NCBI GenBank assembly: GCA_017644105.1
Contig: JAEPMD010000005.1
Span: 62,001 to 126,000 of the forward strand
DNA from: Rhizobiaceae bacterium
GTDB taxonomy: Bacteria > Pseudomonadota > Alphaproteobacteria > Rhizobiales > Rhizobiaceae
DNA: 64,000 bases
Direction: 5' to 3'
Of this stretch, positions 54,824-55,836 are shown in pieces; the first letter of the stretch is position 1, and each line of letters opens with the position of its first letter. The notes under the pieces are model-generated. The model did no database searches. It worked only from the letters and a program-made list of their open reading frames with translations, and was not told the origin of the DNA. Position numbers and translations under genes: made by a program.

Positions 54824-55291
54824 TTACGGTTTTGGATCGCCAAGATTCATATAAAGATTATCCCGCAAAATTCGAACCGCTTTGTTGATTTCTGCAATCT
54901 TTTCTGGGCTTAAGTCGGATTTTACTAACAGTTCACTGGCAATACAGCCTGCATCAAATTGCAAGTCTTTGCCTTTTGAGGTGAGGGACGTGATCACTTC
55001 ACGTTCATTTTCCGGATTGCGTTGACGTGTCACAAAACCAGATGCTTCAAGGCGTTTGAGCACAGGCGTAATTGTGCTGAGTTCTAGGCTGAGATCACGT
55101 GCGATTGAGCCAACAGTTTGTCCATCTTCCTTCCATAGAAGGTTCAAAACCAGATATTGCGGATAGGTGATACCCATCTTATCGAGCAGCGGTTTATAGG
55201 TTCTTTGGATGGCTAAACTCGCCGTATAAATCCCCAAACAAATGTGATCATCAAGGCTTGGCGGTGTCGGATAGATGTTGATCTTGGTCAT
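54824..55291 (-). CDS. ohrR: OhrR, MarR-family organic peroxide sensor repressor
   Basis: The 155-residue MarR-type protein has the winged helix-turn-helix (about 50-115) and the reactive cysteine C18 in LDDHICLGIY, which corresponds to the peroxide-sensing Cys of OhrR. It is divergent from ohr, as in many proteobacteria. Oxidation of the cysteine by organic hydroperoxides releases DNA and derepresses ohr. There are further cysteines, including C126 in the C-terminal part (AGCIAS), which might act as the resolving thiol of two-Cys OhrR proteins. Confidence 0.95.
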   Translation of the reverse strand: MTKINIYPTPPSLDDHICLGIYTASLAIQRTYKPLLDKMGITYPQYLVLNLLWKEDGQTVGSIARDLSLELSTITPVLKRLEASGFVTRQRNPENEREVITSLTSKGKDLQFDAGCIASELLVKSDLSPEKIAEINKAVRILRDNLYMNLGDPKP

Positions 55292-55310: not shown

Positions 55311-55381
55311 TACTTATTGCGATAAATATTATCTTGACAGGTTGTTGTCAAACACATAATACTTATCGCGATAAGTATTAT
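55311..55381. promoter_or_regulatory. Divergent ohrR/ohr control region with two OhrR operators
   Basis: A perfect 26-base palindrome at 55356-55381 (core TACTTATCGCGATAAGTA) covers the -10 of a strong ohr promoter: TTGACA 55334-55339, 17-base spacer, TAATAC 55357-55362. A second copy at 55311-55328 matches the core in 16 of 18 bases and covers a leftward -10 (TATTTA) lying 17 bases from TTGACA on the other strand (55351-55346). The centres are 49 bases apart. This layout lets OhrR repress both genes. Confidence 0.82.
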
Positions 55382-55407: not shown

Positions 55408-55836
55408 ATGTCAGTCAATGTACTCTACACAGCCAAAGCCTTTGCCACTGGTGGACGCGATGGATTTGCGCAAACAGCAGATGGAAGTTTCAAGGTTAAG
55501 CTTGCAACACCAACAGAGCTTGGTGGCGACGGCAATGGCAATAATCCAGAGCAAATCTTTGCCGCTGGATATTCAGCCTGTTTCTTAGGCGCAATGAAGT
55601 TCTTTGCGTCACAAAACAAGCATCTCAGCGTGCCTGAGGATGCAAAAGTTTCTACATCGGTTGGCATCGGACCGCGTGACGCTGGCGGTTTTGGCATCAC
55701 GGCTTCAATTGAAGTTACATTGCCGGGTGTAGATGCGGCAGCAGCGCAAGAGCTGGTCAATGGTGCGCATGAACAAATTTGTCCGTATTCTCATGCCACG
55801 CGCAACAATGTCGATGTGAACGTTTCCATCGTTTAA
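55408..55836 (+). CDS. ohr: Ohr organic hydroperoxide resistance peroxidase
   Basis: Ohr is a thiol peroxidase of the OsmC/Ohr fold that reduces organic and fatty-acid hydroperoxides using lipoylated proteins as reductant. The 142-residue protein has the peroxidatic cysteine in YSACFLGAM and the second in EQICPYSHA. It also has the N-terminal YTAKAFATGGRDG segment typical of Ohr rather than OsmC. The ATG of MSVNVLY is favoured because AAGG lies 9 bases before it; an ATG three codons upstream abuts the ribosome site. The lipoyl system needed is encoded in the same window. Confidence 0.96.
   Translation: MSVNVLYTAKAFATGGRDGFAQTADGSFKVKLATPTELGGDGNGNNPEQIFAAGYSACFLGAMKFFASQNKHLSVPEDAKVSTSVGIGPRDAGGFGITASIEVTLPGVDAAAAQELVNGAHEQICPYSHATRNNVDVNVSIV

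Follow-up and report, generated by a model that had tools for sequence, protein, structure and literature searches.

The window analyzed here, a stretch of 64,000 nt of Rhizobiaceae DNA, very probably contains an autorepressing switch of the EstR/SydR type, with two operators, that controls ohr. We observed two paired sites, a divergent gene pair, a regulator that belongs to the EstR/SydR clade, conservation of the box among relatives, and cysteines at the EstR positions. For relatives that are ~57% identical to the regulator, dual binding, repression of both genes, and redox release have been reported (PMC5201249, PMC11633110). Support for a two-operator switch at this locus is good, and its kind is already known. 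The locus is an ordinary, well-supported member of the EstR/SydR type, for which we correct both the name and the operator. Its features are as follows:

54824 to 55291, (−) strand: EstR/SydR-type OhrR-family repressor gene, 155 amino acids, with C18 and C116 (Pfam MarR, 64.9 bits)
55311 to 55328, no strand: regulator-side operator, 18-bp core, with the 12-bp box TTATTGCGATAA at 55314 to 55325 (one mismatch)
55323 to 55351, (−) strand: putative ohrR promoter, with TTGACA at 55351 to 55346, a 17-nt spacer, and TATTTA at 55328 to 55323 (3/6)
55334 to 55363, (+) strand: putative ohr promoter, with TTGACA at 55334 to 55339, an 18-nt spacer, and AATACT at 55358 to 55363 (10/12 in the promoter scan)
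55356 to 55381, no strand: ohr-side operator, a perfect 26-bp palindrome, with the 12-bp core box TTATCGCGATAA at 55363 to 55374
55408 to 55836, (+) strand: ohr, organic hydroperoxide resistance peroxiredoxin, 142 amino acids (NCBIfam TIGR03561)

Both dyads that the earlier note had described, a perfect 26-base palindrome and a near-copy sharing 16 of 18 core bases, were confirmed in the window. The palindrome at 55356 to 55381 consists of two directly abutting 13-nt arms, and no other perfect even palindrome of at least 18 bp occurs in the 64 kb; 60 first-order Markov sequences yielded a mean of 0.42 palindromes of at least 18 bp and 0 of at least 26 bp. On the regulator side, TACTTATTGCGATAAATA (55311 to 55328), itself a 7/9 dyad, differs from TACTTATCGCGATAAGTA (55360 to 55377) at 2 of 18 positions. 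A search with the 18-mer (Y/R form, ≤3 mismatches) returned two matches in the window, both of them the dyads, with 0.13 expected by shuffling. Across the genome (3.93 Mb), the two window dyads were the only zero-mismatch matches, and the total number of matches at ≤3 mismatches was at the level of the backward control. The dyad centers (55319.5 and 55368.5) are separated by 49 bp, i.e., 4.67 helical turns, in agreement with the 4.5 to 5 turns proposed before. Measured against the 12-bp box, the pair has 0 mismatches on the target side and 1 on the regulator side, with divergent genes on either side. In a congener (L007), the two 12-bp boxes and the two TTGACA boxes are the same as in the window, the regulator-side mismatch included, but T→C at 55360 breaks the 26-bp palindrome while the 12-bp core stays intact. 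We therefore regard the 12-bp core as the conserved unit and reject the 26-bp palindrome in that role.

The inverted TTGACA boxes claimed earlier are indeed present at 55334 to 55339 (+) and 55351 to 55346 (−). For ohr, the −10 candidates are AATACT (55358 to 55363; 4/6, 18-nt spacer) and TAATAC (55357 to 55362; 3/6, 17-nt spacer), and the predicted promoter is plausible; the candidate ohrR promoter is weak and was missed by the promoter scan of the region. Both −10 boxes are weak matches, the chance expectation for promoter-like sites in that stretch is 2.1, and the T→C change in the congener lowers the ohr −10 match. If right, the two putative promoters overlap by 18 bp (both contain 55334 to 55351). 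Of the 41 relatives with paired boxes, 24 have TGTC[CA]A (T[GT]GACA on the other strand) at the corresponding place, either 35 to 41 nt from the core start (n = 17) or at 53 to 55 nt, where the outer box was picked (n = 7). The mapped −10 of estC, the EstR target (TATAGT; 20-nt spacer), abuts its box likewise (PMC5201249), which would place the ohr core operator at the −10/+1 border. The regulator leader is shorter than that of EstR, with the box starting 34 nt before the start codon versus 60.

The regulator is a member of the MarR/OhrR family with a sensing cysteine near the N terminus and is of the 2-Cys type; its C18, Y32, Y43, and C116 align with C16, Y30, Y41, and C114 of EstR. The closest solved structures are named OhrR, and we take these to be the proteins from Xanthomonas and Bacillus. 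The recognition helix is LELSTITPVLKRLE, not the classical LDSGTLSPLLKRLE type, and reads LELST where its subclade mostly has LESST, the window protein lying on a long branch. The gene adjoins ohr in divergent orientation. The start of ohr is probably 55408 rather than 55399, because AAGGA is found at a normal distance upstream of the former, whereas upstream of the latter there is too little space for a ribosome site; the longer frame from 55399 scored 170.7 bits against TIGR03561 (cut-off, 88.85). This is the one Ohr of the genome, and no estC orthologue was found in it (best EstC match: E = 8e-4, 32% over 63 residues). A second OhrR-like protein is encoded on another contig of the same genome (G000:C8). 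Its gene (L049; G000:C8:37500-39500), with the helix LMTDTNTMTPILKRLE, has its own dyads, TATATCGTGCACGATATA and TATATCGTGCGCGATGTA, which lie 44 bp apart and form another two-operator arrangement, in a code unlike TTATCGCGATAA.

The genome contains the exact 12-mer twice: apart from the window copy, once (C93) inside an open frame that we labeled NAD synthetase-like from its translation. There are 35 one-mismatch copies elsewhere, and of the 20 that were inspected, 19 lie inside open frames of at least 110 codons and one (L166, C14) lies outside any such frame. No partner box at the family spacing was found beside these 20; at one of them (L169), a match with 3 mismatches lies 23 bp off, itself within an open frame. 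Judged from these sites, a wider regulon beyond the ohr locus appears unlikely.

For the comparison with relatives, 143 loci with OhrR-like genes (L007 to L149) were fed to the final scripts and yielded 137 proteins, after removal of 2 identical proteins and of 4 loci in which no regulator matched at E ≤ 1e-15; the relatives are the best matches to the window protein and thus not a random sample. In the tree, whose bootstrap was not fully settled, 47 of the 137 proteins form one clade with the window protein, EstR, and the SydR candidate (support 97/98), and a 17-row subclade (support 100/99) contains the window protein, the congener, EstR, and SydR. EstR is represented by a pAt gene (L076) whose flanking hydrolase and SDR genes match those described (PMC5201249), and the SydR candidate (L104) lies on Sinorhizobium meliloti pSymA, with a 144-nt gap to a divergent hydrolase gene. 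The core that the earlier note had suggested looking for in related genomes is there: TTATCGCGATAA (≤2 mismatches, within 300 nt upstream) was found in 47/47 clade members and in 1/90 proteins outside the clade; dinucleotide shuffles gave a rate of 3%. A cysteine occupies the C116 position in 44 of the 47 members; outside the clade, this position most often has another residue, with several rows also having C. The divergent target is a GHSxGG hydrolase in 23/47 members (a count based on this pattern within the longest open frame in the divergent direction), ohr in 19/47, and another gene in 5/47. The alpha/beta hydrolase target, a trait of EstR and SydR that gives way to ohr in the window, is therefore not defining for the clade. 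Relatives with a classical-type box have the recognition helix LDSGTLSPLLKRLE. Of the other OhrR-like proteins, L011, L012, and L038 share the helix region GEKL.LESSTLTPLLKRLE; boxes upstream of their genes, for example TTATCGCGCGATA, have half-sites two bases wider apart and may be a third operator code. The group of L047, L055, and L062 (LESNTLTPILKKLE) has GCGATTTAATCGGATGCGATTTA or a near copy upstream in three genomes.

With a pair defined as boxes 40 to 72 bp apart with ≤4 mismatches summed, 41 of the 47 clade members have paired boxes and the other 6 have no pair within these limits; at ≤3 mismatches summed, pairs were found in 39/47 members, 0/90 proteins outside, and 0 shuffles. These counts, together with the EstR system, tested by footprinting (PMC5201249), and the SydR system, tested by gel shift and reporter fusions (PMC11633110), bear out the view that two operators serve the adjacent regulator, divergent from ohr. 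The spacing has its mode at 53 bp (11/41), with 31/41 pairs at 49 to 56 bp, one at 44 bp, and nine at 67 to 71 bp; in these nine of 41, the script apparently chose the box 15 bp further out. The 49-bp spacing is found in 4/41 pairs, those of the window and its congener among them. The better box is on the target side in 22 pairs and on the regulator side in 6, with 13 ties (sign test 22 versus 6, ties excluded: p = 0.0037, an optimistic value, as the test treats related sequences as independent). The weaker regulator-side site of the earlier note is in line with this trend and with EstR, which protected OI at 50 nM and OII at 75 nM in footprints (PMC5201249); of the functional reading attached to it, we retain that the weaker match probably makes autorepression somewhat weaker, and we treat graded control as speculative.

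When the 12-mer was slid along the flanks, a degenerate second box emerged at an offset of exactly 15 bp toward the transcribed side. Specifically, at least 8 of 12 positions match at 24/41 target-side and 18/41 regulator-side sites, compared with 0.3% and 0.2%, respectively, at other offsets, and the 16-bp offset is at background. In the window, the palindrome arms outside the core, ATAA and TTAT, correspond to the half-sites that boxes at −15 and +15 would contribute. The "26-bp palindrome" is better understood as a 12-bp core flanked on each side by half-sites, in a 15-bp register found repeatedly in the family. The EstR footprints, reported to span +16 to −18 and −46 to −82 (PMC5201249), would be long enough for a core and a second box.

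A classical OhrR switch operating through the usual OhrR box, which the gene name in the earlier note suggests, is very improbable. The divergent ohr, the nearest solved structures being called OhrR, and the Vibrio-type OhrR as the top NCBIfam model all point that way, but this model scored 115 bits against a cut-off of 200, and the protein falls in the EstR/SydR clade, outside the LDSGTLSPLLKRLE group that bears the classical box, with its second cysteine at the position of EstR rather than of Xanthomonas C127. Neither CAMAATTNAATTKTG nor the classical box in its TACAATT-AATTGTA or alpha form was found within 300 nt upstream of the regulator (≤2 mismatches). Hardly any more credible is that another regulator binds the palindromes while the neighbor acts elsewhere. 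The second OhrR-like protein of the genome could be such a regulator, but its gene has different dyads of its own, TATATCGTGCACGATATA among them, and the box tracks the clade of the adjacent regulator (47/47 versus 1/90); furthermore, in the inspected 20 of 35 one-mismatch copies, 19 lie in long open frames and none is paired at the family spacing.

Cooperation of the two sites, by looping or through a fixed helical phase, which would make the response all-or-none instead of graded, is somewhat less remote than these two but still unlikely. The clustering of 31/41 spacings at 49 to 56 bp around a mode of 53, or about five turns, speaks for it; against it, the window at 49 bp corresponds to 4.67 turns, every value from 49 to 56 occurs, and SydR was reported to repress each half of its intergenic region alone (PMC11633110). 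A fixed helical phase is unsupported, given how the spacings vary among the 41 pairs.

For the EstR/SydR-type switch, three things are inferred: that the regulator binds the two dyads, where exactly the promoters lie, and what the inducer is. The reduced repressor dimer would bind the TTATCGCGATAA-type box beside and over the ohr transcription start (55356 to 55381) and, at 55311 to 55328, the box with one mismatch that covers the start of the regulator gene, so shutting both divergent promoters. Probably only one polymerase could act at a time, because the putative promoters overlap. Once C18 is oxidized, and probably then linked by a disulfide to C116 in the other subunit, the repressor would be released; Ohr would then be produced and destroy the peroxide, and the extra repressor produced would close the switch again. 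Organic hydroperoxide as the signal, read from the ohr target, is not certain, because SydR answers NaOCl and EstR answers cumene hydroperoxide.

The dual-operator kind of switch is itself already known from EstR and SydR. An open-access search, with most subscription journals outside its scope, returned no publication on an EstR-type regulator of ohr (19/47 members here), nor on the box shared across the clade, the 15-bp register, or the trend toward a better target-side box, and such absence is weak evidence. A broader reading seems to us evenly balanced: Alphaproteobacteria would use at least two regulator-operator codes for ohr, the EstR code would have taken over the only ohr in this genus, the code change would track A64, S72, and C116, the operator would be a 15-bp half-site array, maybe for more than one dimer, and not one long palindrome, and the weaker regulator-side box would be selected and recurring. 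Automatic names call such proteins OhrR, and a classical box is then sought in vain; the box code, the cysteine position, and a few residues separate both kinds from sequence. The 47 boxed clade sequences offer test material for how MarR repressors change DNA specificity and for why the weaker operator tends to lie at the regulator gene.

Among known systems, EstR-estC of Agrobacterium tumefaciens (Atu5211-Atu5212) shares with the window the clade, the box, two operators between divergent genes, the cysteines and tyrosines, and the better box on the target side. It differs in its esterase target, as opposed to ohr, and in a box spacing of 53 versus 49. Its operators are described as OI (GTTATCGCGATAAC) over the estC −10 and OII (AATATCGCGATAAG) over the estR −35 (PMC5201249), whereas the regulator-side site of the window overlaps the putative −10. 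EstR binding was lost with cumene hydroperoxide, its target responded to cumene hydroperoxide but not to t-butyl hydroperoxide, and the authors stressed that the EstR site is unlike the site of A. tumefaciens OhrR, which has a single operator (PMC5201249).

SydR-SMa2023 of S. meliloti likewise shares the clade, the paired TATCGCGATA repeats, and the cysteines (C16/C114 versus C18/C116 in the window). As reported, SydR represses both divergent genes, its own included, an NruI cut within the two TATCGCGATA repeats abolishes the shift, and in vitro 1 µM NaOCl inhibits binding, while the protein stays bound after 4 µM tBOOH or H2O2 (PMC11633110). Here, the differences lie in the target, which is SMa2023 (in L104, the corresponding pSymA locus, an alpha/beta hydrolase) versus ohr, in the NaOCl response, and in the box spacing (53 in L104 versus 49).

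The classical OhrR-ohr systems (A. tumefaciens Atu0846; S. meliloti OhrR) resemble the window in having a MarR repressor gene divergent from ohr, and classical OhrR is a peroxide-released MarR repressor (PMC3107159). Their operator is TACAATT-AATTGTA (as quoted in PMC5201249) or, in S. meliloti, GCAAATTAATTTTG and similar sequences of the GCAAATT-AATTTTG form (PMC3107159), whereas the window box is TTATCGCGATAA; the available text on Azorhizobium OhrR (PMC7141136) yielded no motif sequence. Skermanella rosea (L106, plasmid pSR-2) has, as in the window, an EstR-clade regulator, two boxes, and ohr as the first divergent gene, but the locus is plasmid-borne and an EstC-like hydrolase gene follows ohr in one divergent run. 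With ohr and then a hydrolase opposite an EstR homologue, this locus links the two kinds of target.
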